A stretch of 64,000 nt of DNA from Chaetoceros tenuissimus (lineage: Eukaryota; Bacillariophyta; Thalassiosirophyceae; Chaetocerotales; Chaetocerotaceae). Positions 34,009 to 58,271 of this stretch are shown here, one piece after another (the first letter of the stretch is position 1; every line of letters starts with the position of its first letter). The position numbers and the translations under genes are program-made. The DNA is taken from contig BLLK01000061.1 of NCBI GenBank assembly GCA_021927905.1, positions 124,001 to 188,000 on the forward strand, in the 5' to 3' direction. The notes under the pieces were generated by a model. The model was not told the DNA's origin and made no database searches. It saw only the letters and a list, made by a program, of their open reading frames with translations.

Positions 34009-35801
34009 TCAAGGTTTTGAAAGGACATCTTCACTTGAATTCTTGTCCCTTAGACTCATTCCCTCGATTAGTTCATCTTCGTCAAATTCTTCCCCATCTC
34101 CGTCGTCGTACTCTATCCACCAAAAGCCTCCATCTTTGTTGTACTTCTTGACGCTTCCAAAATAGAGGTCTGTTCCAAAAAAGTATTTTGCCACTCGTGT
34201 CCCAATGTATCCTTCTGGATTTGACTTTGGATTAATTACCTTCGGACCTTGATTCTTGTAAGCTTTAATGTATTCTATTGTGGTAACAAGATATTTAACA
34301 TTCACAATACGATTAGTTGCAAAGATCAAAAATGAGTAAACAAAGTAAATAATAATAATGGAGACTCACCTTTGACATCTTCCAGCTCCACGTCTTCTGT
34401 ATCTCCATCTAGATAATTTACTCGAAACAGGAATTTTCCATCTTCATCAATCCACAATCGCTCCACATGTCCACCATATGGTACACTTTCCCCAGTGTCT
34501 TCATCTACAAAGTGTTTGACCAATGATTCTCCAACGTATTTTTCAAGCTTTGCTCTCTTGGCATCAATAGTTTCTGCACTTTCTTTTCTTGGACTGATAA
34601 CTGGTGCCTTGTTTTGAGTAGAGGTAGTAGTAGCTTCCTTTTGTTTCTTCAAACACTTTTCTTCTAGAATATGGGAGACAGCAAAATGTGCCAACCCAGC
34701 CAATTTCTTCACATTAATTTTTTCAGCTTTCCCTTGTAAGATACCAGAATAATCCTCGTCGCACAATTTCATCAATAGCTAAAACGGCAAATAGATTAGT
34801 AATGTGAGTGCATATGTAATTGAATAAAGGGGTTCATCGTGATTATTTTTGGTACTCACTTCAGTTGAACCTCCGCATATGACAACTTGTCTACTTTTAT
34901 TCACAAATACATCTGAATCCTTTTTTCTCTTGTTTTTCCCTCCCACGACATCAATCCATTGTTTATGCACACTTCTCATCAAACTAGCAACTTCCATCAA
35001 ATTTGAAGAAACCATGGCATTCTTTGTATCGGACGCAAAAGTATCTAATGGCTTTGAAACGCGAATGCATCGATCTACAAGTGGTTCCACAAACTCAGGA
35101 ACCGAAATAGGCGGTAATGCATCCGTTCCAGTATGCATAGCATCAAACCTCATTTGTAACCCAGCAGTGATACCTCCTCCCAAGACATTACCATTATCAT
35201 CTGTAGCTGCATATGTCAATGCTGTGCCACCATCAAATACAAGTGCTGGTGCTCCACAAGTTTTCAAAGCAGCATACAAAGTAGCCAAGCGATCAATGCC
35301 CATGTTCGGATACGCTCCCTGCTCTTGTGTGAAAAAATCTGATTTTTGCAATTCAATGAGTCTACATGGCAAGTCACGCATGAGTCTTTGCACCAGTGCA
35401 GTCTGCTCAGAGTTACTACTGATGATGTAGAATGTAGGTTTGAATCCCCTTTTTTCATTCTGTTTGTTCATTGCTTCGATGGAAGGACTTTCAGTTTCTA
35501 GTCCAAAGAACCAGTCAGTCAAGCTCTGACAAAGGCATTGAGTGAAGCAATTGAGCATTTCTTGCTTACTTCCCATAGTCTCTTCCATGGTGAGATGCGG
35601 TGTTCGCCAGAACGTGGTAGGGTTGAGATCGTTGTGTCTTTCACCGTGGAGTGCCCATTGAATGGTGGAGTTTCCAATGGATATCGAGAAGACCTGCTTC
35701 TCATTCTTTTTGGGACCCGATGCTGGCCAAGAGGACTTTGAGAAATTGGAATAGGACTCGTTACTTGTAGAAGTCACTGTAGCATGAAGATCGTTTGTCA
35801 T
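34009..35801 (-). CDS. type III pantothenate kinase fused to two Tudor-like domains (3 exons)
   Basis: Exons 35801-34860, 34778-34370 and 34274-34009 join in frame to 538 aa. Residues 35-355 are type III PanK (CoaX, the ASKHA fold): SISIGNSTIQWAL (phosphate 1, with Ser where most bacteria have Asp), MGIDRLATLYAA (the GxDR motif, 168-179), LVFDGGTALTYAA (188-199), LGGGITAGLQMR, and VVICGGSTELL rebuilt across intron 1, continuing to GLAHFAVSHIL. A Lys/Ser-rich linker follows. Residues about 393-450 (KYVGESLVKHF...YLDGDTEDVEL) and about 472-525 (IGTRVAKYFFG...WWIEYDDGDGEE) are two Tudor/PTM-like beta barrels. PanK makes 4'-phosphopantothenate for CoA. From memory, cyanobacterial CoaX also has an 'IGNSR' loop, so descent from the plastid ancestor is possible. 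The fusion is supported by in-frame splicing. Confidence 0.85.
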
Positions 35802-36662
35802 GATTTATATTTTAGATCTTGTGGTCGGTAGGAAGTTCTGAATAGAAAGATATGTTTTGTACTGTGGCTCTATTTAGCTTGAAATTTCTTGAAACTTTGG
35901 CTGCCACTGCTCTCCAATTACTTTTGAAAGATGATTTCGCGTTGAACCAGAAGCTTCTTGATAGAGACAAGTCTATTTATGAATTGTTTGATGTTGACAA
36001 GGTCTGACCTGACCTATGGAAAGATTTGTGCAAATTGCAAGTATCAAGTACATATTTTTTGAACACTGCACCGACAGAGCGAGCAGCGAGTAGCGATCTC
36101 CCACGGCTTTCACGGGGCCTAATTAGATCCTTTAATCAATTTTAGATTTTGTATAGCAATGTGAATAGCCAATTCCATTAGTTGGATTTTGACATTCATT
36201 TCCGAAATTCCATGCGAAAGTTTGGAAAAAAAATAATTACTCTGAAATGCTCACTTTTACTCGCTTCGGTTAATAGTATGATATGAAGATCATACCATGT
36301 AGTTCAAACCTCAATGACAGGGATTGAAAAAGCTTTACAACACTACAATGCACAAATTGAAAATAGAACATTTTCAATCGTATGAATGCTTGTATCAAGA
36401 TTGCTTTTATCAACCCTAGTCAACCGTAAAGACACTTGACTTCCTGGCTAATAATAAATCTTCAACGAACTAAGTCATTGCTTTTGGAATAATCCATGTT
36501 TATATTTAACTTATCTTTCAACACATAATACTTTTTCTTATCTTTATTTCTTTCAACACATAATACTTTTTCTTTCTTTTTTTTCACACATGGTGTTTTT
36601 TCTTTCTTTTTTCACACATAATATCTTTAAACTTCACTTTTCACTGGGCACTTGATCAAAGC
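35802..36662. other. intergenic, with a GC-richer patch and a 3' pyrimidine repeat
   Basis: 861 bp between the PanK-Tudor start and the end of the giant gene. A GC-richer patch lies near 36068-36120. The right-hand 110 bp is the repeat listed separately. No gene is supported. Confidence 0.45.
36514..36625. repeat. degenerate tandem repeat (CACATAATA + TTTTTCTT units)
   Basis: About four units of 25-35 bp share CAACACATAATACTTTTTCT-like sequence, grading into TTTCACACATGGTG and TTTCACACATAATATC. The repeat lies 40-150 bp past the stop of the giant gene, so on the transcript it reads as purine-rich 3' UTR or 3' flank. It may form part of the processing region, or it may be neutral slippage. 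Confidence 0.7.
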
Positions 36663-39600
36663 TCAATTGTTCTGGCGTCTCATCATTTGAATAATTGCAC
36701 AACTTGCAAATAAACATCCACCAAACACCATTGCCAATTGATACTTCATCATAGATTCCTCTGAATCTTTCATCCTTTGCATCTCATCCAACAATGTTTG
36801 CTCGTGTTCCTTCATCTCCAACTCTCTCTTCTGTTCCACCTCTTTCATTTCCAATTCCCTCTTCTTTTCCAACTCTTTCATCTCCTTGATCTCCAACTCT
36901 TTCTTCTTTTCCATCTCATCCAACAACTTTTGATCGTGCTCTTTCAACTTCATCTCTCTCATACTCTCCATTTGTTTCATTTTCAACAGTGCCCCTTCAA
37001 TTGACTCGAGTTTATCCTCATTCTCAATTTGCTTCAGCTCCCGATTACCACCATTTCTCATTTCAGTATCTACATCTTCATCTGCCTCCTCTCGATGATC
37101 CGCATCAGAATTGACATCAATAGAGTACATTTCCAAATCTTCCTTGCATGGAATGATGCGAACATCCTGGATGCTATAAGATACACCTTCGCGGAGAAGT
37201 CGCTGCTCCGTACCAACACTTTCATCGTTGTTCAAAGCACCCTTCAAACTTTCAAAGATATCAGATGAAGTAGACCTATTAGAACCCTTCAGTAGTCTTC
37301 TACTATTAGGTACTGATGCAATCTCTACTTCAGCTGAAAGCACAGAATTCTTTTCGTCGCAATAGACTTCTGAAATATTGAGTCTATCGTCAATCTGTAA
37401 TGATGAGAACTGAGATAGTTCGGAGCGCAACTGCCTTTCTCCATCAACAGAACATGAAATACCTTTACTTCGTTTCAAAAATCTAAATCGAGTTGAGGCC
37501 CTTGATAGATCCATCGCAGCAAACCTTTTTGTGAAGCGAACATTACCCTTTGTCTGATGGTCTATTGGGTTTTCGTTCTTATCTTCAATGTAGGATAAAC
37601 TTTCGCCACCAATTTTTCCTATTTCGACGGTGAATTCTTGTCCATTGATCTGAGATACACTAAGACCACTTGTGTAATCGACTTGAAACTGGATCTTTCT
37701 TCCCTCACAAATGACATGTAGCCCATCGCCATTCCTTAGGACAAAGTCAGAGTTTTGGGATAGCCTCCTATGAGACGATCCTACGTTGGTTAGATTTCGA
37801 GTTCGTGACGAGCCACCATTCGGTACAGACATGTTGCTCGGAATGTCTGAAGGTAAGTCACTTGGTATAGTGCTTGGAGTTAAGGACGGAATTGAACTAG
37901 GAAAGTCTGACGGCGCATCAGAAGGGCTCAAGGACGGAACATCACTTGGTACTGATGACGGAATTGAGCTTGGTGTATTTGAAGGTATATCTGTTGAGGT
38001 GGGAAAAAGAAAAAAATAACAGAGTTGGTAAAATAAAATTGAAAGTGATAATAAATGCGACGACATGATGGTATGATTGTGAATTAAGTTGTGTGAATAG
38101 CACAAACATAGTGAATGGCTTTCACATAAATAATAAAAGTCTCTCCTGTTTCTACTCACCACTAGGTAATAATGAAGGAACTGAACTTGGAATATCAGAA
38201 GGTGCAGTAGACGGAACTGAGCTAGGCAAATCTGATGGTGACGCAGATGTACTTGGCATTCCACTTGGACTTGAGCTCGGACTTAGACTTAAGCTAGGAC
38301 TTGCAGTTGGTCCAGCGATTGTCATTTCAATATCAAAGCTAAAAGGTGTACGACAATCCAGGTCCTCTGTAAACTCAACATACATTTCTTGTCCAAGTAG
38401 TACTTCTTCTTCAAGAGGTTGTGGATATCCATAAGGCTCTGGTGGATTAAAATCGATAACACCAGTGATAATGTCGTCTCTTGAATACTGAAACTCAAGA
38501 GGTCCTAGACATTAAAATAGGTTGGATGAATATCAATGAGCCAAAAAAATGTGCCAATATCATAGTTAACGAGCTTACCTGCAATTTTATCACATTTTGC
38601 TTCAATTATTACTTCATAAGATGCATCTTGTAGTAATCCATCTCCGATAAACCAATCTAAACTAATGAAACCGTAATCACTTTCTTCAGATTGAGCAAAA
38701 TCCATATCTACCAAACCATTCTCACTTTGCATCTTGCCGTTTCTCCATGTTGTAGTCCCCTTCTTACGGTAGAGAAATGATATCTTTTCAAGTCTTCCCT
38801 TTGGTACGAGTTTTTCAACAAAAGTGGAATTCTTTTCATGGTATTTTGGATTGAATACTGTTACAGTCAATGAATCTTTGTTTGACGATAAATTGTTCCT
38901 AAGAAAACCTTGATCTCGTTTAAGTTCCCCAGCCCACTGTACTGTTGGGCACGGCTCAATCCACTTCAATCTCTTTTCATTGGTTCCAGGTTTCACGTAA
39001 TTGTATAAATATTCAGATACAGGTTCCTATAACCAAAACTTTTAGCACGATTCGTTGCGTAATTAGTATTTTCGAAGATTTACTTACTGTTTCATAATCC
39101 ATTGCAAATTCACATGCACTGCGTAATGCGAGCCTTGCGGGAAGAAATTCATATCCTTTTGTCTCTCTTGTGACTCTAACAAACCGAAACTCAGGAGTTT
39201 CCTTATCTACATCAATGTTTTCAAAATTTCATGAGTTTGAGTTGTATGTTAAGAAACTGAAACAAACGAAGCAAATCTTCAGAACTCACCTAATTTGATT
39301 GCAATACCTTCATAATCGAGACTTTCAAAAGTGTCCAAACGAATCTCTGAAATTGAATTTGCATGTTAGTACTAGATTTTATAAGGAAAATGGAGGGCAA
39401 AAGTTGGGATTGAAGCACTCACCAAGAGCTGAAGTTGTATCATCAATATCCTGAGCTATGAGAAAGTATGAATACACATGCTCACCAATATTAAGGAACT
39501 CTATATCAAAAACAATCTCCTTGTCAGGGAAAATAAACTGACTAGGCTGGGATAGGATTCTCACTCTCGGATCTTCACCCTTGATTGTACCTTTCTCCCA

Positions 39601-42600
39601 TCTGCATCTTGTTATTCCCTATTTGATAACTGTTTAGAACATAGCTCGTTTATATGTACATCAAATTGAAAACGAATATAGAATTAACTTACCCCAACCG
39701 TATCAAAAACAAAGCTTCCATACATCTCGTCATGGTATATATCAAGCACTATTTCATCTCCGTCATCGCTTCAATACAAGCAGATTATGAGAAGGAAAGA
39801 AAAATAGAGATTTTACATTCATACACTTGTTGCACTTACGGATCTCCAAGCCCAAAGGAAACAGAAGTTTCAATGCCTTCTTCATTTGTTATAGAGCTGG
39901 AGTGCTCTACATGAAAATCGAAATTCATGCCTCCTTCTACACCTACTAGAACTCCAGGTCCTTCGAACGAGGTTGACAGACCGCCGACTCCAGCACTTAA
40001 ATCTAGTGAATAGTTACACCCAGCAAAAGCTGTTCCAAGTGCGATTGCACCGCCAGCAATTGGTAAAATTGCAGCAGCAGCCAAACCTAGAAAACAGTGA
40101 GGATTAATGAGGATCAAAAGATAATATCTAAAATATTTATATTGTACTTACCAGCACCAGCACCAGCAGCTGCTAAACCAGCAAACGCTCCAGCACCACC
40201 TGTGCAAATAAGTGAAATAAGTGAAATTTCTAAATGGAATGGTGAATTTGCGATTGAATTCTTAAAGACTTACCAAACACTCCACTTAATACTCCCGGAA
40301 TGATAGGATTGCAATTTTGTTTGGTATATGCTTCGGTTGAGCCCTTACTCATACTCATCTCGAGCATGCCTGCATCACCTGATATCTGTACCCTCATTGC
40401 CTTGCGAATGGAATCTCTGTTGTTATCAGAACCAGCACCCTCTTGTCCATTCAAAAGTTGAGAAGTCCCATCCATCATTGTTGCGCTTGATATCAGTTTC
40501 TCCGGAACGAGTGGTGTCTCAATGTCAGTAATCTTTAAATCCTCATTATTGCCACCGTTACCCTGAAACCAATTAGAAATCCTCTTATTCTGATCTTTTG
40601 CAGCTTTCTTGGCATCTTCATTTGACTTTATTGTATTCTTCCATCCATCAAGAGCCATTTGAAGGGTACTCAATTTTAGATTTTCATAGTCTTTATCTGA
40701 GTCAACACAGATTCGTCCAGGATTTGTTGCAGTAATTTTTCCTAGACAACTTCCCTTTTGAGGAGATGGACAACATATGATTGATGATGACATTTCCTTG
40801 ATTGTATCTTTCTGAGAAGTAATAGCTGATTCTAATTCAGGAATCTTGACCAGCTCTGCAAATAGAACAAAATAATATTAGCACACTAAACTGAGTGGCA
40901 CTTAAAATAATCATACGTCACATTGATATACTTTCACTTACTCAAATGGTAAAGGGTATAGAATGATAGAGCTGGCTTGCTTGAATCTGCTTGTAGGTCA
41001 AATGCAACTGATGATTCAAACTCCGTTTTACTGTTTCGAGTCACTAGTTTTGGTTTACTGCTTTCTCTATTCCATTTCACCAGAAAAATCTCTTCATACA
41101 TTACAGACAAGTTTGGTACTGGATTAATAAAATACATGTGAGTACATATTCCATATCGTATGCGATTCAGTATGCAATCCACTTCAAACTCTTCTTGACA
41201 CTTACCAATGAAAACGTCAGACTCTTCTCCTGCACGGGCAGGCTCTTCACTAGTTGTATATGACCATGTTGTAGAGATCTCGTTACTTCTTTCATCAGAA
41301 TTGCTCATCATATCAGCACTTATACCTCCCCCAAGCGGTATCTCTCCTTCAAATTCGGCATCACTTACTCCCTGTTTTTGAACGTAAAGATTGATTTCAA
41401 TACTCTTCACAAATTACTGACAAATTTGTGATATGAAGTTACTTACTGTACAAAACAATACTATGGCTCCCATACCACCTCCAGTACATAAATCTCCATC
41501 AAAAGATGTACCAGCAGCTATGGTGAGATCTATGGAAGATGCAATATTGACAACTGTCTCTGATGCAGCGATTCTCGACTTTGTAACCACATTTTCATAC
41601 GATGCGTACGAAGATCCTCCACTATTGAAAAATTAAAGGATATCTCCAGTCAGTAATGATGGAGAATGAAACTGAAACATATTTAAGGATAAACATCAGA
41701 ATATACTTACGGTGGATCTCTCAAAATCATGATTGGGTTGTGTGTTGGAAGTGCAAACATGTTTCCATTACCTTTCCCATAATTTCCTGGAGAAAATTTT
41801 GTAATATATGTGTGTTGAGTCATTGTGATTACATGATAAGTCTTTTTGCATGATCAAAAGCAATGCTTACCTTGTATGAAAAACTTTGCCGAATGTCTAA
41901 CATCGATGGCTTTTGCTGAAGATGCTACTGAGATAAAGAGGTTTCTTGTAAAGTCTCCATACGGATTTGGACGACCTGTTATCAATGTGCTATAGTAGAT
42001 GTTATTGTGAGTAAACACATAAAGAACCGAGCGATAACGAGTTTAGCAACATGACCTAATACTTACTAATCTATACCTGAAAAGGTATTACCTCCTATAT
42101 CCTGCGTCTGACTTACTGTAACGTTACACAAGCTGGTAAAAGGTAAGCAATATCATAATGAGAGAGAGTCCATCTAATATGGTAAAGTTTTAAAATGAGC
42201 ACTTACCCACTTCCTTGTCTACCGTTGGCTATATCACCAACATTTGCAAGATCAACATCGCTACACATAATCAAAGCCCTTTGTGTCACATAATCAACAC
42301 TCTTGTAGAAGTCGTCGAAACCATCCATCCTACAAATATCATGATTCAACGAACGTGTCAGTGCAAAATTATAAGAAGTAAGTAGAAACAAAAAACAAAC
42401 TGAAACATACCTATCTGCTCCAAGATTACTATGTATGTTGACTGTGTGTGTATCATCTACTTTGCTGCAATAAACTTCATCTTTGATAATTTCATACTCA
42501 AGATCAACGCGCAACTTGAACAAAGACATGTAATCAATTACATGGAAAGAATCAAACCCAATTTTCGTTGATAATTGATCGTATCTCACATTCTCTACCT

Positions 42601-45600
42601 CATATGCAGAAGAATGTTCAATGGAAACACTCATCTTCAAAGTCCCATCATATTGAAATCTAACAGTCTCTTCCTCTTCCATGACTTTGTCTTTGTCTGC
42701 AAGAAGATCACCAGCCTCGTCTTCAGCCGTACCAGTATTTGTATGAACTTCCCTTTCTTCTTCTTTTTGGAGCATATCTTCAATTTCTGCAGTTTCCCGC
42801 AAATCAATAACCCGAAAGACTACTGGATTTTGAAACGCATCCCATATTTCATCAATGCGTTCATCTTGTTGATCTTGAATCTCGATCAATTCAACTTCTA
42901 GTACAGCAGCTGGAAGATCCACAACTCTCTTCTTATACTCGTCACCATTATAAGTATCATGAATGATAGTCTTTCCTGGCCAATCACAACCAAGGATGGA
43001 AATCTTTGCAGTGCTCTTTCCTAGTGGTAAATTACAATCCCCTCCAGCAACTAGAAAAACATTCTAATGAGAAAGATGAAAGATGAAAGATGAAAAAGTA
43101 TTGCATCATTCTCTACTCACCTTCAAGAGTCATTGATGTCCTACTAACATCAACAAAGTCATTTCCTTTGTACAGACCATCAGCAGAAATGAGAATACCA
43201 ACATCATAGTCGTAATTATTGCTGGCTGCAGCCATGAACTTGTGACCCAGGTATGAAATTTCTACACGATTGATGACAGACCCAATGACAACAGGAGCTA
43301 TAGAGATTTTGATGAGAACAGTTCTAGAAGAAAAAAAAATTCAGTTCAAGAATTAGGAGTGACCACTTACCTTCGTATCGCCCTTGGCTATCTGTGGTTG
43401 CTTCTGTGAGAAGCTCCGGAAACTCACTTCCGGGCACTTTGTGGTAGATCTTGACTTCAGCATTTACTGTAGGACAGCCAGCTGATCCAGCAAAGACTGT
43501 ATCCAAAATGAATACATTACCTGAAAACATCACTTGGGTTGCGTCGTACACTTCCACTTTCTTGTTGAATTCAAGGTGCTTCAAAAACATAATGTGACCA
43601 TCATCATTGCATACTTCTTCCCCAAGGTTGCAAAGGAATGTATGGGGAATTACGTTGGTGCCTGTGGTTGTTTTTCTAAACTTCAGTTTCACAGGAATTT
43701 CATCGAGATGGGTCACCCCTTCAAGATATGGATGTGCAACTAGAAAATCTATCTCAAAACCTCCTCCAGTACTTGTCGTAATACTTCCACTACACCCTTG
43801 GCAAGAGAGATCTTCATAACCCATTGAAAGAAGTTGGTAAGAGACAGTCACACCCTCAATAGGCAATGAACCACTATGTGGCTCTGTCGTAACAACACCA
43901 TTGATCGAAGCTTCCCATTGAATTACATGGGGAGTACAGCTTGCATCAGAATGTCCAAGATCTTGACTTAAATCAGAAGAATCATAAGGAGAGGGCATGT
44001 ATGCTCTTCCGCTAGAACCTGCCTGTACGCAGTACACATAAGTCTTTCCCACAATCAGTTTGGACAGACTCAAATTATCAAAGACTTCTTCATTTGGTAA
44101 AATAGTCTCATGGTCACATGTTGTATCCGAAGATCTACTCATTGTCCCGAACGAGATTGCAGAATCCATAGACTCAGAAAACTCTTCGTAGGCTGCATAT
44201 CTTGTGAATGAAAATATATTTTCACATAGAGAGTTATCAACAAAGGAAAAGTAAACCCGTCCGTTCTTTTGCTCGACGATTGTCATGTCCTTAGGTGCAC
44301 CTGTCTTCTCTTTCTCTGCTTCGTCTCCATCACACGTACAGCGAGTCACAAATCTAACCCTTACAAATGTTTCATAATATTTCATTGTCAAAGCGTACAT
44401 TTTTCCAGGCTTGAGGCCTGTCAACTCAAGTTTCTTAGGTCCTTCTTGACCCTCTACATCTACTACTGTGGCTTTATCATTGATTTGAACATCTGCAAAA
44501 ACGCGTGAATCATCCCGTACTTCAAGTTTGATACCTTCTGTAAGATCATCAAGATTCAAACCAGAAATTGTCTCTTGATGCAGAGGGATTTCAGCGGATA
44601 TTCCCGTTATATGTAGCATGGTTGAATGCACTTGAGGGATGCAGTAATCGCCATTTTCCAAATACTTCTTCAATCCATAAGAGTCACTTTTCATGACGTA
44701 ACCATCACGACACTGACAACCCCCTTCAAGAAAGCGAGAGTTTGAATCTGAACACACAAAGTGAATCTATCAAAAGCAAAGAGCAGGGATGAGAGATCTA
44801 TACTGTTTTTATATTGTAAATGCTGAATTCATACAATCTTTCGACTTACCTCAATTGTTTGCAAAACAGTATTGCTTGTTTTCGATCTCACTGCCAACGA
44901 AACTAGACCTGATTCAGATGCATAAACTGATACCTGATCTGCAGAAGGATTATTAATAACAAGAGGAGCATCCTCCGATCTGCTGTATGTCAATCCCAGT
45001 TTATCTTTTTGATATAAAAGAGCTTTCTCTTGCCCATTTTCTACAAACAACGCTGCAAGGAAATGCCCATGTGTACTGAGAGCTACTTGTATGATTGTCG
45101 CGGGTACATCTGTGATGGTTGCTTTTTGTTCCCAAGTATCTGATACAGCATTTAGGTTGAATATCTTGAGCTCACCATCATCTTCAATCACCACAACGGT
45201 ACCACTATCCGAAATAGCAGCAGTTTTTGTGACGCGACTTCCAATTTGATTTGTACCCGTCACTCTAAAGGGCAATTCAACGCTCTTATTTTCACTTGTG
45301 CAAACTTGAGCCTTGATCACACTTTGAGAACCATCATGAGTTAAATATACAGCCAAAGCACCTCCAATGTCATTTGCTACATCCACTAGCTGCAATTGTG
45401 TCTGTCTCACAATATTAGCAGGTACTTCAAATTGAGGAGTATAGAAGCTAGATACTGCACTATTTCCAGTCATTGACACTTCGCCAAAGCCATCAAAGTT
45501 CCAGTCATAAGGCAGGTCAAAGCATTCTAATGATTTCGTGGTATCAGCTCTCTTTTCAATCGTAATGGATCCTCTCTTTGCATTTGTACTTGGAATCTCT

Positions 45601-48600
45601 TTTGCTTCAAAAGCCGAAACAGGTACAGTGAAGGATCTACTCTTCTTACAACTGCTACTTGTTGGCTGTGCTTGTTGAAGACAATATTCTGTATTTACCG
45701 GCACATCTTGCATTGCTGTCTTCTGCCCTCCAATGTATGCTGATATTTTAAACTTTGTTGGACTTTTCCTTGTAGTTGCACTCAACACAATCTTATTACT
45801 ACCGCACCAGTGTACCACACATACTCCTGTTCGCGTGCATTTGTCAGGGAGTTTACCCATACCGTCGACACTAGGCACAGAGGTTTTAGAATCAAAATCA
45901 ACCAACTCAATGAATGCATTGTAACAACCTTTCTTGAATGAAATACTTTTGCTATTGTCACCACCTGGTTTGATAAAGATTGGAGACATCTCCGCTGAAC
46001 TTGTAGCAGCAGCAATATCTCCAACAGCCACAACTCCGAAATTGTCTTGATCTCTTACATCTTCACTTAGAAGCTTGTACTTTGATCCTTGAGTCGCCGC
46101 AGAGCTTGTGTATGTGAACGTTGTTCCTATGCTTTCAGCAGATGAATCTAAGCAAAAATACTTTGCAGTTTCGTAGGCATAAGCTTTTGGAGCACATTTT
46201 GTATTCTTTTGGTACTCGGTGAAAGATGAAGTTGAAAGGGAGTTCATTTGTGCAGTGTAGCGCTCTCTATACGCCTCTGCTAGCTCCTCTGCAAGCTTGG
46301 TCCAATCTTCTTCGCTGTATCTCTTACTATCTTCCATCCAGTTGACAAGATCCTCATCATCAGTGTATTGGGATTTCAAAAATGCTTCAATTTGATCTTG
46401 GAATGTGCTAGGGGTAACTAGCAAGTGAGGAAACCACCAGTGCTGAGTACTGCCTTGAAAATAAAAATTCGGTTGTATATTTGGAATGTCACAGACCAAT
46501 GCTTGGAATGCCATCTTCTCAATGTCATCATCACACTTGACCTTGCCTGAAAATGGGAGCGCTGGAGGATTATATTTAAAGGACTCCATCAGCGATTCAA
46601 CACTTATATTTCCTTTGACTTCAATTCCTTCTATCGCAAGCACTGGGTTTCGTTCATCAGGAAATGGGTAATAGTCAAAACTCATAGAGTTCAATTCGAT
46701 CTTGATCTCATCAATATCAAGAGGTAGAACGGTGTTAGGAATAGTTAGACTACCACTTGGTGGCAGTCCATTGTAGACGTGTGTATAGACTTCTTCTCCT
46801 TTTTTCAGAAACACAGTTTTGAAATTCTTCATTTGGAAAAGGAAATAAGGGTTGCTTGATGTCCAAATCTCCAGGGAAGTCACTCGATACACGTGCTTCC
46901 ATTTTAATTTGTACCATGGCATACCTCTACAATGAAGGAAATATTAGCATTTGTAAAAGATTTCGAAATGTTTGTGTGGCTTGTCCTTGAACTCACCTCT
47001 TTGCAGTAACACTTGTCACAGAACCTTTCAACTGCCCACTTCCTGTGTTACAGAGCTTGTCATCAACAAAACCATCATTATCTGTCACGTCCATGCACTT
47101 GAGTGATTTATTACCACTCAGACCGCTGTGCTTGTACATATTCCTGAAAGAAGAAGCTGTAAAGGCCTCATAATACATAAAGTATGGACTATCTTTGGAT
47201 GTGCATACCTGTGCATCATCATGCCTTTCTCTCGGAAATACTGAACATCGTCCATTGTTTCTAATTTCTTTGTTTCTGTCTCTCCAGTCCTCAGATGAAT
47301 ACTGATAATTCTGGGAAATATGGTCTTCCGAACTATAAAATTCGATCTCAGGTGTATCAAAAGCGCTTCTCCAGCACAATTTATTGTCATAGGAATGGTC
47401 ACTCCAGAGCTGTCCAAATCGCATGCAAGTGTAGCCATTTGGTGGGGAACCTCCATTTTGCCAACGAAAATCATTAGGAAAATGAGGCAAATTTGTTGAG
47501 GTATTTCTGTTAACAGCCTTCTCTGGTCCATACTTCCTCCCAGCAAATTCTGCAATGGATGACATACTGGCAGTAGCTTTTAGTTGAATTGGTTCCTGAT
47601 ACTGCAATTGTTTATTAGCATTGACTGGAGTTATACCATAAATTGCATTATATGACTCCTGAAAACCATTCCGATCAACTTCTTGTATATTACCAGCAGT
47701 GCAAAATAGATTATCGTTATGAACTTCTGCACCATTAGCACTGAACGTGAAACCAAATGCCTCAGTGACGCTACCAAATGCAGACTTCAAATAATTATGA
47801 TAAACTGTCTCCTTACGATTGTTCAAATTATATCCATACGAGAAAAACTTGGAGTAGTAACAATTATCCTTTGGATCTTTCGTGACATCCGAGGAAACTT
47901 TCCATCCATCATTTCTAGATGGGAAGTGAGCATTGACATCAGACCAACTATTTGTGGTGGCATCTGAATATAGATCTGGAGCAACTAGATTACCAAAGTC
48001 AACATGTTGGTGTGGTATTTCAGGATTAGAATCATTCTCTTGATCCATTGCAGTTCCTCTCGATGGAGGTGCAGATCCATCTTGGATTTGAATTCTCGAG
48101 AATGTAGACTGGCCCTGTGACGGGCTTCCATCATTGTCTTGAATCAATGCCACGTAACGAATTCTGTCTGAATCTGGATCAGGGAATAAATCGGATACAT
48201 TGATTGTAAAGGAAGTCTCACGTCCTATGATTGGTCTACCATGGACAATGATCTCTCCAATCATGTGGGGATATTTTGATGTGTCTGTGTTATGAAGCTT
48301 GATTCCAACCTGAATCCCTTCATAACGTGTCATCTCAGACTCATAGTTTCTGAATCCACTAACACGAACGATTCCACTCTCGGCAATTGTATCGAATCTC
48401 TTCTCGGCCAAAATAGTAGTACCATCGCGCTTTCTGATATAGACAGAGTAGTCATTGAAACGTTCAACATATGAATCCATTCTGTTGTGGATAATTACTT
48501 CTTCCACAACCCATCCATACTCAATCTGGACCCAAAAGTCAGTATCCACAACATTGCCATTGGAATCATCATCAGGCAAACCAGTGTTTGTGAATGTGTT

Positions 48601-51600
48601 CAGGTTACCGTCATTACCTCTCTGTGCAGCACCTAGAGAAGAGCCACTACTCAAATTTGCATTTTGATATGCTGTTCGACCAAGAGCTAAATTCTTTCTA
48701 TGAACATGTCTCCATTGAGTAAACTGGGTCCCTGCAAGCAATATACATCGGAGATCTTTTCCAACGAAAGGATCGTGATCAAGATCATTATCAACGCATA
48801 TAGCATGACCTTCTACTTGTTCAGTCAATGTGAAGGAAAAAGTTAATGTTGTTCTTGGATTGACAGAAATTGGAGTGGTTAATTGGAATGCTTTCCATGC
48901 ATTACCAGAGATGGTAGCTTGAGTTTTGTCACTGCTCATGACAACTTTCCCTCCAAAGTCCTGATGAAAGGCTGCTACATTGCCATAGGATATCGCACTA
49001 GATGTGTCAACACCATTGACTTGGAGAGGAAGGAACTGTTGTAACAAAATTAAAATTGATTCTATGAGTACTACGAGTATGAAAATTTGAAGAAGCAAAT
49101 AGATCATGCCAAAAAAACTTACCATATTTGTATCATCGCTAATCACTGTACTCTCATAAAGCTCAACGTTGGAGAATGATGACTCCCCACTGGGCTCTTC
49201 AGATCTATCATTTTGAATCAAAGAAATGAAATTGATCAAAGGCCTTCCGTAAACCCTTTCATTGTTTTCTTTTGACCCGAAAACCTGAGCTTGACTTACA
49301 TCTCCATCTATCTCAATCTTATTACCGATACAGTTTGGCGGCAGAGTAACATGTACAGTATCGGTAGCTAGATTGTCCAAATCCACTGAACACTCCAACT
49401 CTTCATTCTTCTTTAGTTCCGCATGAAAAGTAGTGATCGAGGATGAAAATTTTACCATTACATCACTAACAAGATGATTCCCAGCATCAAGTACTACGGC
49501 GTTGCTGTCAGAAGATTTCAGTTGACTTTTAATACCATTCCAGATAGGATATCCAAAGCTAATGCCTTCCATGAGCATTCTCCCTACAGGAATATTGAAG
49601 GTTTTGACAATATTACCTTCAGCATTAAGTTCATCAGGACCAAAGACAAGTACTTCAGCAAGAGCCAATATTCCTGATCCTACCATCTCAATCCTGACTT
49701 TGTCACCAGATATTGGAGTACTTAAACTGTGGTCAATGATGGCATTCTGGCTTACTACCCTATCAACATGGACAGTACAATCATTTCCCAAACAAATTTT
49801 CAAATCAAATTCATCAAGGGCGTAGCCAGCGGCTTTGTGGACGACAATTCTATTGATGGATACAGTACTCTGCAAGTCAACTTCCCACCATGGGTTACTC
49901 TCATGCTTTGTTTTGGCTACAGAATTCTTTTCAGGAACAGATAGATGCTTATCCTTCGGATCAATGTACCCATCTATGGCTTTATACGCGTCAGTGACAT
50001 CATCAATATCTGCAGAAATTTGACTTGCGACCTTTCCAGAGGCCAAGTTCAAAAGTTTTGCTCTTTGCATATCAATTGTAGTCTTTGGAGAAAAATGCTT
50101 GGTTGGATCAACGTCAGTACCAGCGAGGTAGAAGCATTTTCTAGCATCACTTGCAATAGCATCAAAATCTAGACACAATGCATGTGCATTGGTTTCAGTC
50201 TTTAACGTGAAAGTGAAACGCATCCATGTATGCTGTGTGGTCTTGTAAGGATTCTCGGTTTGATCAACATGGCTCAATTTTACAGCATTCCAAGTATTCC
50301 CATCAAGATCAATCAGTCCATCATTCGCATTCTTCAATATTCCTCCTCTGTAAGCATTGTCGATTGGCGAATATGCTCTAGAAACACCGTTGAAAAGGGA
50401 TGACATGGTATCGTATACTACAGATGTCTGTAATTATCAAGGTTAGTAAAGAGAATATTACATGAGACGGAGAAGACAAAAATGTAAATGCTGACCGTAT
50501 ATATATATTTTTTTTTCCAAAAACTTACATCTCTTCTTCTCAATCTTAAACCTGTAGCACTATCTTTCTGAGCATTTTCCTGCAATTCGTTGATTTCTAA
50601 AAGCCTTTCAGAATCAGAGTCCTATTTTATAAAAAAGCATTAGTTGAATTATAAGTACCAAAGCAATAAACATATGACAATACATAAAAAGCTTACCGTG
50701 CTTGCCCTACAAATCTTTCCAGTACTGGTGAATATAGTGTCGTCGTTGTTTGGCAAACAGGAACTGACTCCTACATTCTTGCATTCAGAGGTATGATTAC
50801 ATTCTTCATCATCGTAAACTGTTCCTGGTGGCCTCACAGGAGTTTGGGATGGTTCTTGAGATACTGAAGGAGACCCACTTGGTGAGGATGTTTCAGCTAC
50901 AGATGGTTCTTGAGACAATGTAGGATTCGAGCTGGGTACCATACTTGGACGGCTAGTGGGAATAGAACTGGGAGATACAGAATGATGCATTCCTCCTCCA
51001 CATGAACAGCATGCAGAGTATGTATTCTTGTCCAAATAGTAAAGATTTTTAAATCTTTCACAATGATCCGGATACTCTGCAATGGCACTACATCCAAGCA
51101 AAGCGCCATTTTGCTCAAACTCCCAACCAGGAGTATCTTCACATACAGATGGTTCCGAAGAAGGGGCAGCAGAAGGTACCTCGCTATCAGTCGTGGGTAC
51201 AGAGGAGATTGATGGTTTCGAGGATGGTGTACTTGAAGGGAAGGTGGATTGGTAACGTGATCCGTCACAAGCACAGCATGCCTCGCTTACACTTTTTCCA
51301 TTAAAAGAATGGTCAGGTACTTGACTCACAGCACTGCACCAATCATTGAATGTGGAGTTTAGTTGAGTACAAGTCATACCGGCATAGAGAGATTCCCCAC
51401 CAACAATCCATCCTTCTTCATCAGCGCAAACTGTTGGGAAACTAGATGGCTCTGAACTTGGAAGAAGAGATGGTTCAGAACTTGGGTCACGTGATGGTTC
51501 CATGCTGGGCTCGTCAGAAGGAATTAAAGACGGTTGATCTGAAGGGATGTCTGACGGAATATCACTAGGTTGATCAGACGGAATATCTGAAGGAATATCA

Positions 51601-53235
51601 CTTGGTTGATCAGACGGAATATCTGAAGGAATATCACTTGGCATCGATGACGGAAGTCGACTTGGTTGATCCGAAGGAATATCTGAAGGGATATTGGAAG
51701 GCATGTCTATTTAACATCGACAGAAAAAGAGATTATAGTTAGCAAAGAAAAGTTACAATGAGAAACAAAACAAACATTATCGAAAATATGTATCCAGTCC
51801 CATAATCATACGTAGAAATAGCCATAGCTCTGCAAAAGTACGACCGTGATGCAGTCCTCATTCACTCACCACTTGGAATATCACTTGGCTCCATGCTCGG
51901 CTCGGAAGAAGGCAACAATGAAGGTTCATCGGACGGTTCACTGGACGGCATTGATGTCGGAGAAGGACTTGGTTTTGCAGAAGGGCTAGGGCTTGGTTTT
52001 ACTGATGGTTCAGAAGAAGGTTTTGAAGAGGGACTAGAGGTAGGTGACACTGAGGGGGTAGAAGTTGGTACATTTGACGGAGCCTCTGACGCAAAGTCTT
52101 TGAACCAAAGGAAAAGAGATTTGTTATCTCTATGCGCACTCATCTTATATAGACGTACTTTCTCAGTCGGTTTATTAGGGTTCAATCCAATAAGCCACTG
52201 TTGAGTCACATCTTGTCCAAACCCTACAGCTCTAATTCTTCCGGCACCCATGGCAAAGTAAGCATTATTGATACCATTCACGCAGTTATCTATCTCAAGT
52301 TGAGCCTTTTCAAGTTTCCAACGTAGACAAAGCTCTGGTTTCGCACTAAGTCTCAAAAGTCCTGATCGGTCAAAGTGGAAATATTTTCTAAGATCTCCGT
52401 TGCAATGTCTCACTACCAACTTGGATCCGACACTCAAAGATTGTGCTGACAAACAATATGTTTGTTTAGATTCAACGAAATAGCTGGTCATGATTCTGAA
52501 AGAAGATAATTGAAGTTGCAGTTCTCTATCTATACCATCTGATCCGATTCTAGTTGTTGAAGACATGGCACTATTATCAGAAAGCGAAGCAAGAGAATCA
52601 GAAGTGGAAACAGAGTCGCGACGGGCAAGGGTAAGAGGGCTTACATCCCTTTCTTCTTTGAGAATATCACTATCTTTACTTGCAAGATCAGTATCAATAG
52701 TTGAAGTCTCGTTGAGAAGAAGGTCAGAGTCATTCTTAGAGGGCTCATGGGGAACAGACTCATCATCTAGAAGAGGACGAGACTCAATATCATCAGTATC
52801 ATATTCTTTCTGATCTTTGATTCCAGTAGAAGACATGGCACTACTATCAGAAAGCAAAGCAGAATCAGAATCACGACGGGCAAGGGTAACAGGGGTAACA
52901 TCTTCTTCTTTGAGAATATCACTATCTTTACTAGCAAGATCAGTATCAACAGTGACAGTCTCGTTAAGAAGAAAATCAGAATCATTCTTTGAGGACTCAG
53001 GGAGGAAGGACTCCTCATCTAGAACAGGATGAGAATCAACTTCGTCACTAGACGAAATAGTAGAATTCTTGGCAATATATGCAGAGGATAGCTCTGTAGT
53101 ATTTCTTGATTTCTCGACTACTTCCACGTGAGAAGAAATCAAATCAGCTTTGTGATGGGCTGCTTGAGAACCAACCAATAGCAACGCTAGGAGAGCTGCT
53201 TGCAACGCACCACCTTTTTTGATTGGTGTTTTCAT
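36663..53235 (-). CDS. giant mosaic surface protein, 26 exons, 4,816 aa
   Basis: Exons: 53235-51870, 51706-50697, 50621-50529, 50427-49123, 49035-46997, 46926-44850, 44766-43371, 43297-43121, 43050-42411, 42329-42207, 42132-42067, 41989-41871, 41786-41711, 41621-41447, 41371-41206, 41118-40942, 40855-40274, 40199-40152, 40086-39840, 39768-39693, 39618-39423, 39346-39290, 39206-39088, 39026-38579, 38504-38160, 37990-36663; all introns GT-AG, total 14,451 nt. Start 53235 gives a clean signal peptide (GGALQAALLALLLVGSQA); an ATG at 53286 is in frame. Order by residue: acidic Ser/Asp duplication 67-226; ricin-B-like 245-378 (QQW motif); PSxxPS stalks 384-545; CC-type Cys modules about 549-603 and 644-693; twice-repeated beta-sandwich with inserted F5/8-type domains about 850-1570; further F5/8-like and propeller-like beta regions to 2630; EGF-like GGCQCRDGY loop near 2640; FN3/CarboxypepD-like 2700-3100; a beta region with LPTHNPIMILRDPPGGSSYA near 3485; Gly/Ala hydrophobic hairpin 3863-3905; second PSxxPS stalk about 4335-4425; charged coiled coil 4705-4790; transmembrane helix near 4790-4811; tail RRQNN. 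Probably a cell-surface adhesin or wall-linked receptor (inference). Exon calls come from phase and sequence, not from RNA. Confidence 0.85.
49036..49122 (-). other. stop-free, frame-preserving intron of the giant gene
   Basis: This 87-nt intron (GTAAGT...CAACAG) contains no stop in the gene's frame. If retained, it would add 29 residues, mostly Ile, Leu, Val and Phe (GMIYLLLQIFILVVLIESIL core), which would read as a membrane helix at about residue 1259. Good splice signals favour removal. Confidence 0.6.
51432..51706 (-). repeat. coding PSxxPS repeat (IPSDIPSDQPS units)
   Basis: Near-perfect 33-bp units encode IPSDIPSDQPS four times within 51521-51704, followed by looser PSxEPS units. This is the densest of the stalk repeats in the giant gene and is prone to slippage, so length may differ between alleles. 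Similar PSxxPS tracts are common in diatom surface and wall proteins. Confidence 0.85.
52558..53037 (-). repeat. tandem duplication inside first exon of the giant gene
   Basis: Residues 67-136 and 152-226 are two copies of one acidic segment: SKNDSDFLLNETVTVDTDLA against SKNDSDLLLNETSTIDTDLA, then ASKDSDILKEE, LARRDS and SDxSAMSST in both. The matching DNA blocks are about 52770-53037 and 52558-52782. High identity at DNA level suggests a recent duplication or gene conversion. Confidence 0.85.
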
Positions 53236-53453
53236 AGTTTCTTTTTTATCAGATAAATCAACAATCTCCTCGAGATTTTCTATCATGTATTTTTTTGATA
53301 CTATGTGTGATTTATGAGACTGGAGATCGTTTGGGCTGCCTCATTACACATAAGTGGCTGTTCGTTAGCAACACACAGAAAATTTTCCTCAACGGTATCC
53401 AGCGATGCTCAACGGTACTATTTTAGATTTCATGTCACAAAATTATGATGAAA

Positions 53454-53461
53454 TGACGTCA
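53454..53461. promoter_or_regulatory. TGACGTCA palindrome, copy 1
   Basis: Full CRE/bZIP core inside AAATGACGTCATTT. It is 219 bp upstream of the giant gene's start codon. Diatom CO2/cAMP-responsive elements share the TGACGT core (established for Phaeodactylum carbonic anhydrase promoters). Function here is inferred. Confidence 0.55.
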
Positions 53462-53618
53462 TTTTTAGTGTGTCACAGCTCGGCAAATTACATAAAAACC
53501 AGTTATTCTTGCCAAGATTGGAAAAATCTAACGGCTTGATAGGGACCACTAGACTTCCCAGTGTCATTTGATCTCAACGGTACTATTTTAGATTTCATGT
53601 CACAAAATTATGATGAAA

Positions 53619-53626
53619 TGACGTCA
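53619..53626. promoter_or_regulatory. TGACGTCA palindrome, copy 2
   Basis: Same site as in copy 1, displaced by exactly 165 bp, within the second tandem unit. Confidence 0.55.
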
Positions 53627-53783
53627 TTTTTAGTGTGTCACAGCTCGGCAAATTACATAAAAACCAGTTATTCTTGCCAAGATTGGAAAAATCTAACGGC
53701 TTGATAGGGACCACTAGACTTCCCAGTGTCATTTGATCTCAACGGTACTATTTTAGATTTCATGTCACAAAATTATGATGAAA

Positions 53784-53791
53784 TGACGTCA
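53784..53791. promoter_or_regulatory. TGACGTCA palindrome, copy 3
   Basis: Same site, a further 165 bp on, in the third unit; 292 bp before the ATG of the divergent gene at 54083. Confidence 0.55.
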
Positions 53792-54082
53792 TTTTTAGTG
53801 TGTCACAGCTCGGCAAATTACATAAAAACCAGTTATTCTTGCCAAGATTGGAAAAATCTAACGGCTTGATAGGGACCACTAGACTTCCCAGTGTCATTTG
53901 CTAAATTAGCCCTTCTATGTCAACTTTTTTAATTGACAATGTGCATAGCCAGATCTTAGCGGAACGACAAGAAGAAGAAAGAAGTGTGCCGCCCTGTGCA
54001 CTGGCATGAACATTCTCCACCACCAACTCACTCCTCTTCATGAAAAAGGAGCATTCCTTTTTCGATCTTATTGATCATTCAC

Positions 54083-55886: not shown

Positions 55887-58271
55887 CTACCGTTCCTTGT
55901 GGAGTGTACCTTCTCTCAACAATGCCTCTGCGAAACGAAGACCTTCATCGCCTCCTAAATCTCCTGCAGCCATTCTTGACAACTCTTCTCTACGATCTGA
56001 TCCTATGACACTTCTAGCAGTTACTTCAACTCTACCTTCACGGTCGATATTCATGGGTAGTTTATGTATCACTAAATGACGATCTGCAATCGCTGCAACA
56101 GCTGGACTATGAGTAATACTAATAATTTGTGCATTTGGTCTACTCTCTGTAGCGACTCTGGTTTGGTCTGACAGTAATTTTGCCAATGCAACTGCAGCTC
56201 TACCTCCAACATGTGCATCTATTTCATCGTATACAACTGCTATAGGAGGAAGTGGAGTGGTAAACATATCCGAGGATGCCTTATTGCAACAAGCACCAAC
56301 TGATCCTGGTAATTCTGTTTCTATGGCTAGTAAAATCCTCGCCTTCTCTCCAGAAGATCCAACGATGTCTAGCTTACCGCCTCTCTGATCATTCTTGGAA
56401 TATTCAGCCTTTAGAGAATCAGAATTCACTTCTGTATTATTGGACTGATTGATTTGCCTATGTAGAAGTAGAAATGAGACAGTATCAATCCCAACAGGAG
56501 ATGACTCCGAATATCCGACAGGATCTGAGCACTCATTCACTTCAGCATGAAAATCAACATGGAAAGCCGACCCTTCCATTCCGAGGCTTTTGATACGCTC
56601 AGTCACAGATTCAGACAATCTTGACGCAATACTTGCTCTTTCCTTGGTCAATCTTTTACATACATCAACATATTCTTCAAGAGCTTCTTCTTCCAATTTT
56701 ATAGCTTTTGGTAATTCTTGCTTAGCTTCCACATTCCCATCTAATTCTTGTTTCAGTGATCGTTGTAAACAAGGCAAACTGTAAACATCGATCCCATGTT
56801 TCCTAGATAAAGATCCCCAGTCAGCAATAATGTCGGTGATTTCATCCACTGATAAGAATATTTTTTCTCGCATCTTTTCTAGAGTTGCAACAAGCCCCTT
56901 TGGATCATCTTCAATGAATCTACTGCATTCTTTCAGAGCATCTTCCAAACGATTTAACAACTCATGTGCCTTTTCTGTTGCATCTTCAACACTACTTTCA
57001 GCATTTTGACTGGTAATATCATAGAGGAAATTCCTGCTGCGTTCAAAAGCATATGCAGCAGATTCGCTGGTAGACAATGACGTCAACACATCACACGATG
57101 CATGAGCTGCAACTAGTTGATCGTCCAAACTTTTGATGCAACTGCGAAGATCCAAAAGACACGAATAAAATGAATCATTTATGGACACCTGTTCAAAATC
57201 CTTATTGGCATCACTTTTCCATGAGCACTTTGAGAATCTCTTGACAATATTTTGAAACATGAGTTTATTCTCGTCATCATAGTCATCACCATCCATCTCA
57301 CCAGATCTAGCCTGCTCATCATCATCACCGTTGATGGAAGAGAGAGATGTAGTAATACTATCTTGAAAATTATTCATTTTGATTTCGAAATCATCAATTT
57401 CGTCAACCCAATGCCTCAACATTTCAATGTCACCTTCATCAAAACCATTGGAAAATGACGAAGGCAGTATTCTATTTTGCAATTCCTTTTCCAATTTTTC
57501 TCTATATTGTCTGCATTCTCTGTAACGCTTCCTAGTTTCTTTTGCATGTTTGAGAAGATTTGAGTCAACCCCCGAGTCTAATATTGCCATTCTAGCCTTT
57601 GGATCTTTCAAAGCACTACTTGCCGCACTTGCATCCACAATAGCAATGAGAGGTGTAATCAAATATTTCAATACTTTGAGAGTCGTCAATTTCCCATTGA
57701 TCTTGCAGATCGATTTCAGCTGCTTCCTTTTCGAGGACTTGGTTTCATTTTCTATAATCATGCGTGTAAGTTCCAATTTTGCCGTTTGATGTTCATCAAT
57801 GGTAGTTGTAATGAGTGAAGGATCTAATCCCACTTCTTGCAACATGTTTATGGTGGCTGTGATGTGCGGTTCCGTCAGTCTAATTACAACTTTGACAGCT
57901 GCATACTTATCTCCTGAAGAAGGTATAATAGACGGAGAAGCTTTGCAGCCCATTAAATATTCAATCACCTTGGCAACCAGCAAACTTTTTCCCGTTCCAG
58001 TTTCCCCCGTGACTGCTACCAGATTTGGTTCTGATGCAACTTTTATAACCAAGTCTTCTTTTCCATTCTTTTCCCGGTCGCCATTGATGACTGATCCAAA
58101 ATTTTTCACTTTGATGTTTTCAATGTATGAGTTTAACTTTGTGTCTGTTGGCTTAGCATGATGTATTATATGACTATTGCTGAAGCTATGAACGAAAGGA
58201 CCTCGCCGTAAATACACATGCAAGTAAACAAAGAGACTAAGGCTCCACTTCCAAGAGCTTGGGCTCTGCAT
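55887..58271 (-). CDS. recN: RecN-like DNA repair ATPase, probably plastid
   Basis: 794 aa in one exon. The leader (WSLSLFVYLHVYLRRGPFVHSFSNS) has a hydrophobic core and a V-H-S-F-S junction that fits plastid import. The SMC-like N-terminal ATPase lobe has Walker A in VTGETGTGKSLLVAKVIEYL and IENIKVKNFGSV before it. Residues about 225-590 are coiled coil with acidic inserts. The C-terminal lobe has the signature SSGEKARILLAIETELP, Walker B VVYDEIDAHVGGRAAVALAKLL (D-E) and the His of ISITHSPAVAAIADRH. RecN holds broken DNA ends for recombination. Bacterial RecN is about 550 aa; this is longer through inserts. A bacterial (plastid-ancestor) origin with organelle DNA repair is the likely role. 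Confidence 0.88.
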   Translation of the reverse strand: MQSPSSWKWSLSLFVYLHVYLRRGPFVHSFSNSHIIHHAKPTDTKLNSYIENIKVKNFGSVINGDREKNGKEDLVIKVASEPNLVAVTGETGTGKSLLVAKVIEYLMGCKASPSIIPSSGDKYAAVKVVIRLTEPHITATINMLQEVGLDPSLITTTIDEHQTAKLELTRMIIENETKSSKRKQLKSICKINGKLTTLKVLKYLITPLIAIVDASAASSALKDPKARMAILDSGVDSNLLKHAKETRKRYRECRQYREKLEKELQNRILPSSFSNGFDEGDIEMLRHWVDEIDDFEIKMNNFQDSITTSLSSINGDDDEQARSGEMDGDDYDDENKLMFQNIVKRFSKCSWKSDANKDFEQVSINDSFYSCLLDLRSCIKSLDDQLVAAHASCDVLTSLSTSESAAYAFERSRNFLYDITSQNAESSVEDATEKAHELLNRLEDALKECSRFIEDDPKGLVATLEKMREKIFLSVDEITDIIADWGSLSRKHGIDVYSLPCLQRSLKQELDGNVEAKQELPKAIKLEEEALEEYVDVCKRLTKERASIASRLSESVTERIKSLGMEGSAFHVDFHAEVNECSDPVGYSESSPVGIDTVSFLLLHRQINQSNNTEVNSDSLKAEYSKNDQRGGKLDIVGSSGEKARILLAIETELPGSVGACCNKASSDMFTTPLPPIAVVYDEIDAHVGGRAAVALAKLLSDQTRVATESRPNAQIISITHSPAVAAIADRHLVIHKLPMNIDREGRVEVTARSVIGSDRREELSRMAAGDLGGDEGLRFAEALLREGTLHKER

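Follow-up and report, generated by a model that had tools for sequence, protein, structure and literature searches.

A 26-exon diatom gene for a putative giant membrane lectin, with relatives in bacteria and a head exchanged among paralogues

The giant modular surface proteins of diatoms include CaTrailin4 and Ca5609 from the adhesive trails of Craspedostauros australis, and the original CaTrailin paper, by its title, is said to concern proteins acquired from bacteria. The two are put at ~900 kDa and >1 MDa, respectively (PMC11420354), and CaTrailin_4 is described as having a predicted beta helix like that of ice-binding proteins, which sequence methods missed (PMC10713564). Silicanin-1 and the SAPs of Thalassiosira pseudonana are single-pass membrane proteins with a signal peptide and RXL motifs, and Silicanin-1 is described as a type-I membrane protein cleaved from its membrane helix (PMC5525289, PMC5647440). 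Here, we analyze a 64,000-nucleotide (nt) stretch of the Chaetoceros tenuissimus genome (contig BLLK01000061.1, positions 124,001 to 188,000; hereafter the window), the minus strand of which carries a gene for a likewise very large and modular protein that differs from Silicanin-1 and the SAPs in size, domains, and tail. We consider it probable that this is one gene, encoding a multi-lectin protein of type-I membrane topology that serves in adhesion or recognition and belongs to an expanded and recombining family with an exchangeable head. Giant modular surface proteins are a known kind in diatoms; what is unusual is the bacterial kinship of the scaffold and the exchange of the lectin head. 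The gene and its head lie as follows (positions of the window; aa, amino acid positions of the protein).

36663..53235, minus: whole gene, 26 exons, 4,816 aa, ~530 kDa by length, predicted type-I membrane protein
51870..53235, minus: exon 1; signal-like peptide (aa 1-25) followed by S/T-rich acidic repeats (26-240), the ricin-B-like beta-trefoil head (~241-382), and the first part of PSxxPS stalk 1
52090..52515, minus: lectin head (aa 241-382), the exchanged cassette, of two discrete types in the family

One gene within a family of paralogues

Rebuilt from the window (53235 to 36663, minus strand), the gene has 26 exons totalling 14,451 nt, i.e., 4,817 codons including the stop, which is the only stop in the frame, and 4,816 residues, exactly the figures that the first-pass annotation had given for an uninterrupted frame; the frame is kept at 25/25 junctions. 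All 25 introns are GT-AG and short (61-169 nt, median 76), with donors GTAAGT (15), GTGAGT (6), GTAAGC (3), and GTATGT (1), and GC content is 41.0% in exons versus 30.8% in introns (36-41% overall in the window). The existing annotation of C. tenuissimus is described as having a median of 2 exons per multi-exon transcript, with 96 as the maximum (PMC12159174). The start of an annotated paralogue, P0004, corresponds by eye to 53235; there is also an in-frame ATG 17 codons upstream, at 53286.

The species' own genome (41,027,912 bp in 68 contigs), searched with three protein queries, holds 26 hand-counted family loci with the region from the DPPGG block to the immunoglobulin (Ig)-like domain, a lower bound since the searches score only the best candidates. 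Left out of this count were a fragment (C34:3675767), a tail copy (C32:913233), head-only matches (such as C5:22797 and C6:21398), and weaker matches. The F5/8, exon-7, and DPPGG regions lie in the same order and on one strand in 24 of the 26, the window included; the exceptions are C13:1,541 kb, with no F5/8 match, and C13:605 kb, with neither F5/8 nor exon-7 matches. A ricin-like head was found upstream of the F5/8 modules in the window and 11 others of 13 loci compared.

These paralogues also bear on the exon structure. In a genomic alignment of five copies (C47, i.e., the window, C32, C34a, C17, and C46), several introns are cleanly absent from at least one copy at the predicted sites and present in others. 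Further, in-frame exons of 12 other loci span all 25 junctions, 23 of them with no gap of more than 2 residues near the junction. By this test introns 7-24 (18/25) were accepted as solid, intron 17 being crossed only with local gaps, while introns 1 and 25 were uninformative because both lie within PSxxPS repeats, which align anywhere; introns 2-6 were weak in the test and draw their support from the five-copy alignment. The ratio of nonsynonymous to synonymous divergence (dN/dS) was 0.314 against C32 (4,754/4,816 codons), 0.296 against C34a, 0.248 against C17, and 0.163 against C46, excluding codons with a gap, stop, or N in the other copy (62-419 of 4,816), with many C17 exons saturated in dS and C46 showing high values. 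Indels divisible by three made up 37/44 in exons versus 7/41 in introns for C32, 48/65 versus 8/46 for C34a, 69/102 versus 13/47 for C17, and 69/89 versus 14/52 for C46. On average, the window gene is under purifying selection relative to C32, its closest paralogue, and exon 1 is far less constrained or badly aligned (dS 0.54, dN 0.37 against C32). In the C46 copy, the intron matching window 49122-49036 carries a 289-bp insertion with inverted ends (GGAGGGGTGAAGCC ... GGCTTCACCCCTCC) that resembles a small DNA transposon.

The opposite possibility, that several separate genes in a row mimic one, is very improbable. It would fit P0001 (CTEN210_14198), annotated as the C-terminal 1,169 aa alone, as well as P0002, P0003, and P0005, which are limited to the C-terminal half, the C13:605 kb locus with its DPPGG-to-Ig region only, and a stray second copy of the gene end (C32:913233-913754; aa 4618-4816, 70% identical) ~6 kb behind the C32 paralogue. 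P0001 originates from locus C44c (613 residues at >=97%), where the upstream parts are still in order and no head match was found when 13 loci were set side by side. The exon structure itself cannot be derived from sequence alone, since a blind dynamic-programming model based on codon usage returned only 20 exons (4,794 codons with the stop counted); it is the paralogues that compel the 26-exon model. Against separate genes stand the frame kept at every junction, introns 7-24 crossed by paralogue exons, the 24/26 collinear loci, the average dN/dS of 0.31, and the C-terminal parts lying in one open reading frame (ORF) in bacterial relatives. P0004 (CTEN210_14323, locus C44a, matched at >=97%) is predicted as one protein of 4,457 aa that repeats the complete architecture of the window gene. 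P0005, an MMETSP transcriptome ORF with 10 member sequences whose start may be internal, matches aa 2722-4815 in three ordered blocks. Hence, the single gene proposed in the first-pass annotation is supported by collinear paralogues, introns missing from some copies, the one P0004 prediction, and the P0005 ORF, and the parts are not consistently separate genes in the homologues, P0001 being the one exception.

Lectin heads swapped between two body lineages

Head exchange was examined in 12 head-bearing loci. Their heads fall into two types, one carried by C47 (the window), C32, C48, C44a, and C44b, and the other by C34a, C34b, C27, C17, C57, and C46, with 78-88% identity within the first type, 82-95% within the second, and 34-40% between them. 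The bodies group otherwise, into lineage I (C47, C32, C34a, C17, and C46) and lineage II (C44a, C44b, C57, C27, and C34b), with 62-88% identity within lineages versus 39-43% between, and all four combinations of head and body are present. Approximately unbiased (AU) tests rejected a body-based grouping of the heads (p 2.6e-84) as well as, on body data, the head grouping of C47, C32, C44a, and C44b (p 4.3e-4), though the groups were named after the identity table had been viewed and these p values are thus not those of a blind test.

The strongest sign of exchange comes from dS in ten pairs of loci. Where heads are alike and bodies unlike, dS was low in the head and high in the body: 0.47 versus 1.89 to saturated (C34a-C34b), 0.52 versus at least 2.72 (C46-C57), 0.76 versus at least 1.90 (C47-C44b), 0.81 versus at least 2.52 (C47-C44a), 0.56 versus at least 2.00 (C17-C57), and 0.57 versus at least 3.03 (C27-C34a). 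Where heads are unlike and bodies alike, the head was saturated and the body gave 0.17-0.32 (C47-C34a) or 0.39-1.50 (C44b-C57), while control pairs alike in both parts gave 0.29 in the head and 0.20-0.34 in the body (C47-C32), and 0.24 and 0.21-0.60 (C44a-C44b). Selection on the protein alone is no explanation for such a contrast at synonymous sites.

The edges of the cassette can also be seen in the DNA. C34a and C34b are 91.0% identical along 736 bp (-41 to +694 relative to where the head starts), and the same comparison gave no other match of >=150 bp. Among type-2 loci, similarity stops at +694 to +700, within the PS repeats, in four of the six pairs compared; the exceptions are C17-C57, similar to +998, and C27-C34b, two members of one body lineage, in which it continues on. 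The lectin head has been swapped between paralogues of the two body lineages, and the presence of two head types on two body lineages would be explained by gene conversion or ectopic recombination whose boundaries lie close to the start of the head and within the PS repeats. Elsewhere in the family, the copy at C17:755.9-770 kb has 73-87% identity with the window gene between the F5/8 modules and exon 7 and only 48-64% beyond; this drop after exon 7 is possibly a second breakpoint.

Domain layout and bacterial relatives

From exon 2 to the C-terminus, the gene reads as follows.

50697..51706, minus: exon 2; remainder of PSxxPS stalk 1, CC-type Cys modules (aa 549-605 and 644-695), third Cys module (752-790)
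50529..50621, minus: exon 3; basic linker ending in LRLRRRD
49123..50427, minus: exon 4; lectin module 1 with an inserted F5/8-type C domain (aa ~946-1091)
46997..49035, minus: exon 5; lectin module 2, a diverged tandem copy of module 1, with an F5/8-like domain (aa ~1373-1528; RxDx4R at aa 1443-1450), then no known domain
44850..46926, minus: exon 6; no known domain, end propeller-like (FG-GAP-type) only via a weak P0002-P0008 match (E 0.005)
43371..44766, minus: exon 7; weak FN3 and CarboxypepD_reg matches, between the F5/8 and DPPGG regions in 24/26 family loci
43121..43297, minus: exon 8
42411..43050, minus: exon 9
42207..42329, minus: exon 10
42067..42132, minus: exon 11 (66 nt)
41871..41989, minus: exon 12, start of the DPPGG block
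41711..41786, minus: exon 13, ending within ILRDPP/GGSSYA (the slash marks the junction)
41447..41621, minus: exon 14
41206..41371, minus: exon 15
40942..41118, minus: exon 16, VPNLSVMYEE segment
40274..40855, minus: exon 17, its end being the start of the hydrophobic loop
40152..40199, minus: exon 18 (48 nt), G/A-rich hydrophobic loop
39840..40086, minus: exon 19, end of the hydrophobic loop and following strands
40016..40316, minus: Cys-flanked hydrophobic loop, C3850 to C3902, over exons 17-19
39693..39768, minus: exon 20
39423..39618, minus: exon 21
39290..39346, minus: exon 22 (57 nt)
39088..39206, minus: exon 23
38579..39026, minus: exon 24, Ig-like region, inside the stretch matching bacterial relatives (to aa ~4310)
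38160..38504, minus: exon 25; Big_5-like Ig domain, first part (assigned from the likeness to L032 and P0008), followed by PSxxPS stalk 2
36663..37990, minus: exon 26; continuation of stalk 2, remainder of the Ig domain, juxtamembrane RRL (aa 4605), charged coiled-coil-like helix (~4695-4789), membrane helix (~4791-4812), very short tail

The mosaic surface protein of the first-pass annotation is supported: both ends are hydrophobic (aa 8-26 and 4791-4812) and an F5/8 domain stands above its Pfam cut-off, while the ricin-B head falls just below and the FN3 and CarboxypepD matches are weak (E 0.02 and 0.0035, respectively). The exon 2 region (aa 545-800) contains 16 Cys residues, and a helical part lies between the DPPGG block and the Cys-flanked hydrophobic loop. 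Stalk 2 (aa ~4326-4430, window 37796-38496) interrupts the Big_5-type Ig-like domain, at a place where P0001 and P0002 have no stalk. An AlphaFold model of P0001 was poor (mean predicted local distance difference test score 59.8), its Ig-like part mostly reaching ~80. P0004, which carries the source name 'Circumsporozoite protein', shares the signal, a ricin-like head (76% identical), PS stalk, Cys modules, F5/8 pair, DPPGG block, Ig domain, coil, and membrane helix, but its body is only ~40% identical and of the other lineage, with no stalk 2 inside the Ig domain (by eye). No ice-binding-type Pfam match was found in the pieces of the window protein scanned, and sequence methods are described as missing that fold (PMC10713564).

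The two lectin modules can be aligned with one another (27.0% identity across 115 residues; pairwise E 4e-10). Domain 1 of the F5/8 pair matches PF22633 at 37.6 bits against a cut-off of 27.8, and its nearest solved sequence is the fucolectin-related 2j22 (E 3.3e-9); the likeness to F-type lectins consists of an F5/8-type fold judged by sequence in domain 1 and of RxDx4R in domain 2. The latter is present in domain 2 of all 12 loci that passed the coverage filter (C48 was dropped), and it is a motif of fucose-binding F-type lectins, in which a His goes with RxDx4(R/K); this full motif is incomplete in either domain of the window protein.

The membrane-proximal half has relatives outside the eukaryotes. 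Alongside diatom-type proteins, a profile search found four with bacterial-type Pfam domains (P0006-P0009). These match diatom proteins over the DPPGG block, and several pairs match a second time, from aa ~3930-4090 to 4310, collinearly and in one ORF. Two blocks of the window protein match P0008 (E 5e-6 and 1e-8) and P0005 matches it at 2e-26, while the matches of P0006 and P0007 to the window protein are confined to the first block; identity in the blastp blocks between bacterial proteins and the window protein is 22-27%. In a scan of species genomes, 136 pattern matches yielded eight loci, by title five from Saprospiraceae, two from other Bacteroidota, and one from Thermoanaerobaculia. The three scanned as whole bacterial proteins (L032, L033, and L035) each have two Laminin_G_3 stretches, Por_Secre_tail (in L033 below the Pfam cut-off and above that of NCBIfam), and CarboxypepD_reg below cut-off. 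Counting P0006 and P0009, which carry the type IX secretion system (T9SS) tail PF18962, Por_Secre_tail occurs in 5/7 bacterial proteins scanned; a Pfam scan found none in P0007 and P0008, nor in window exon 26, P0001, P0002, and P0004, which have a coil and membrane helix there instead.

Four bacterial genomes gave 1, 2, 11, and 5 DPPG-block matches, some cut by contig ends, and the 11 in the Bacteroidota genome of L035 (G003) indicate that the bacterial family has expanded too. Such matches were present in just 9/296 genomes drawn from the phylum of genome G001, itself included. In a tree of the block, 6 diatom-type and 12 bacterial rows are separated by a fully supported split on a long branch. 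What the diatom protein has in common with these giant proteins of secreted type (from Saprospiraceae, other Bacteroidota, and one Acidobacteriota metagenome-assembled genome) is the CarboxypepD-like part, the DPPG block, the following block, and the Big_5 Ig domain (L032 and P0008), in the same order and in one ORF, whereas the bacterial proteins differ in having Laminin_G_3 and (5/7) a T9SS tail in place of the ricin and F5/8 lectins, coil, and membrane helix. We conclude from these alignments that the membrane-proximal half is homologous across domains of life, and the diatom lineage likely gained the scaffold from bacteria.

Putative function, rival readings, and neighboring sequence

As we picture it, the signal peptide would direct the protein outward, and a charged coiled coil with one membrane helix and a very short tail would anchor it in the membrane, from which the bacterial-type scaffold and the two tandem F5/8-containing lectin modules would extend, with PSxxPS stalks as spacers and the beta-trefoil head at the tip. 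Such a molecule would provide tethered, multivalent lectin binding, its specificity set at least partly by the head, and cassette exchange would alter binding at the tip while the scaffold stays conserved. Surface display, oligomerization, glycan binding, and a role in adhesion or recognition are what we infer from the domain content, and the two head types may bind different things.

Several points weigh against this reading or its reach. Head exchange concerns the 12 loci examined, not all 26; among them, the C56 head fits neither type and its body branches apart, and the body of C48 belongs to neither lineage. The ricin-B assignment of the head (PF00652, E 3.9e-6) is at 27.5 bits against a cut-off of 29, and the nearest solved sequences of the head are at E 0.11. 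Further, F5/8 domain 1 has no RxDx4R, and domain 2 has no His in register at the place expected for F-type lectins, so fucose binding is only putative.

With the conserved RRL, the main rival is a biosilica protein, i.e., a type-I protein in the membrane of the silica deposition vesicle that is cut at the juxtamembrane RRL, its lumenal part ending up in or on the frustule and its lectins binding wall polysaccharides. RRL lies 212 residues from the C-terminus in the window protein, 213 in P0001, 219 in P0002, and 227 in P0005 (P0004 has RRGL at ~200), and RXL is a described processing site of biosilica-associated proteins, Silicanin-1 being cut from its membrane helix (PMC5525289, PMC5647440). 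Yet the motif is short (RXL 19 seen versus 13.2 expected by composition, RRL 2 versus 0.50), the first RXL is at aa 153 rather than ~30 residues after the signal peptide as in Silicanin and SAP, no NQ-rich domain was seen by eye, the few-residue tail is far too short for a SAP cytoplasmic domain, and a wall protein would not obviously need lectin-head exchange; we regard this alternative as unlikely. Less probable still, to the point of being a distant contender, is a membrane-active protein in which the Cys-flanked, G/A-rich loop, carried on the end of a long beta hairpin, would enter the membrane of a partner (fusion or pore) and the lectins only dock. No other 50-residue stretch of the window protein is as hydrophobic as this loop, and in 11 rows (9 distinct sequences) it is uncharged or nearly so, with a grand average of hydropathy of 1.16-1.59; the extraction pattern demanded flanking Cys, and C17, C32, C34a, and C46, where introns may split the loop, were not extracted. 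AlphaFold models the bacterial block with a core at ~70-90 and two long beta hairpins with uncertain tips, and the diatom loop would, by eye, sit in the region of the second tip. By eye, the loop is absent from P0003, P0005, and the bacterial rows, and structure comparison (including Foldseek) gave no weighty fold match, some pore-forming proteins and secretins being among Foldseek's best matches.

Returning to the adhesin or recognition protein, a more far-reaching version of it is possible but doubtful: a combinatorial recognition repertoire, in which heads reshuffled on a bacterial-shared, perhaps bacterial-derived, scaffold would make the cells of a species vary in their binding targets (partners, bacteria, viruses, or self). 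If true, its logic would be comparable to that of recombining surface-antigen or allorecognition families. As candidates for the molecules by which planktonic diatoms recognize mates, bacteria, and viruses, the loci described here would form a countable family of giant proteins in a small-genome species with known viruses, and the head types of this family could predict ligand classes.

Upstream of the gene lies a short tandem array.

53408..53900, no strand: three perfect 165-bp tandem copies, one TGACGTCA in each, between the gene and a divergent frame at 54044 (plus)

The TGACGTCA palindrome, which presumably is a cAMP/bZIP-type motif, occurs five times in the window against 0.78 expected, and the 165-bp array had no other match in the own-genome search; it is possibly a cAMP/bZIP-type control region or a recent duplication. 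On the other side of the gene, window 34782-35804 (minus) encodes a type III pantothenate kinase domain (PF03309, 66.4 bits), here in a eukaryote. Finally, an 811-aa frame at window 55890-58322 (minus) has weak AAA-type ATPase matches and by eye resembles SMC/RecN-type repair ATPases.

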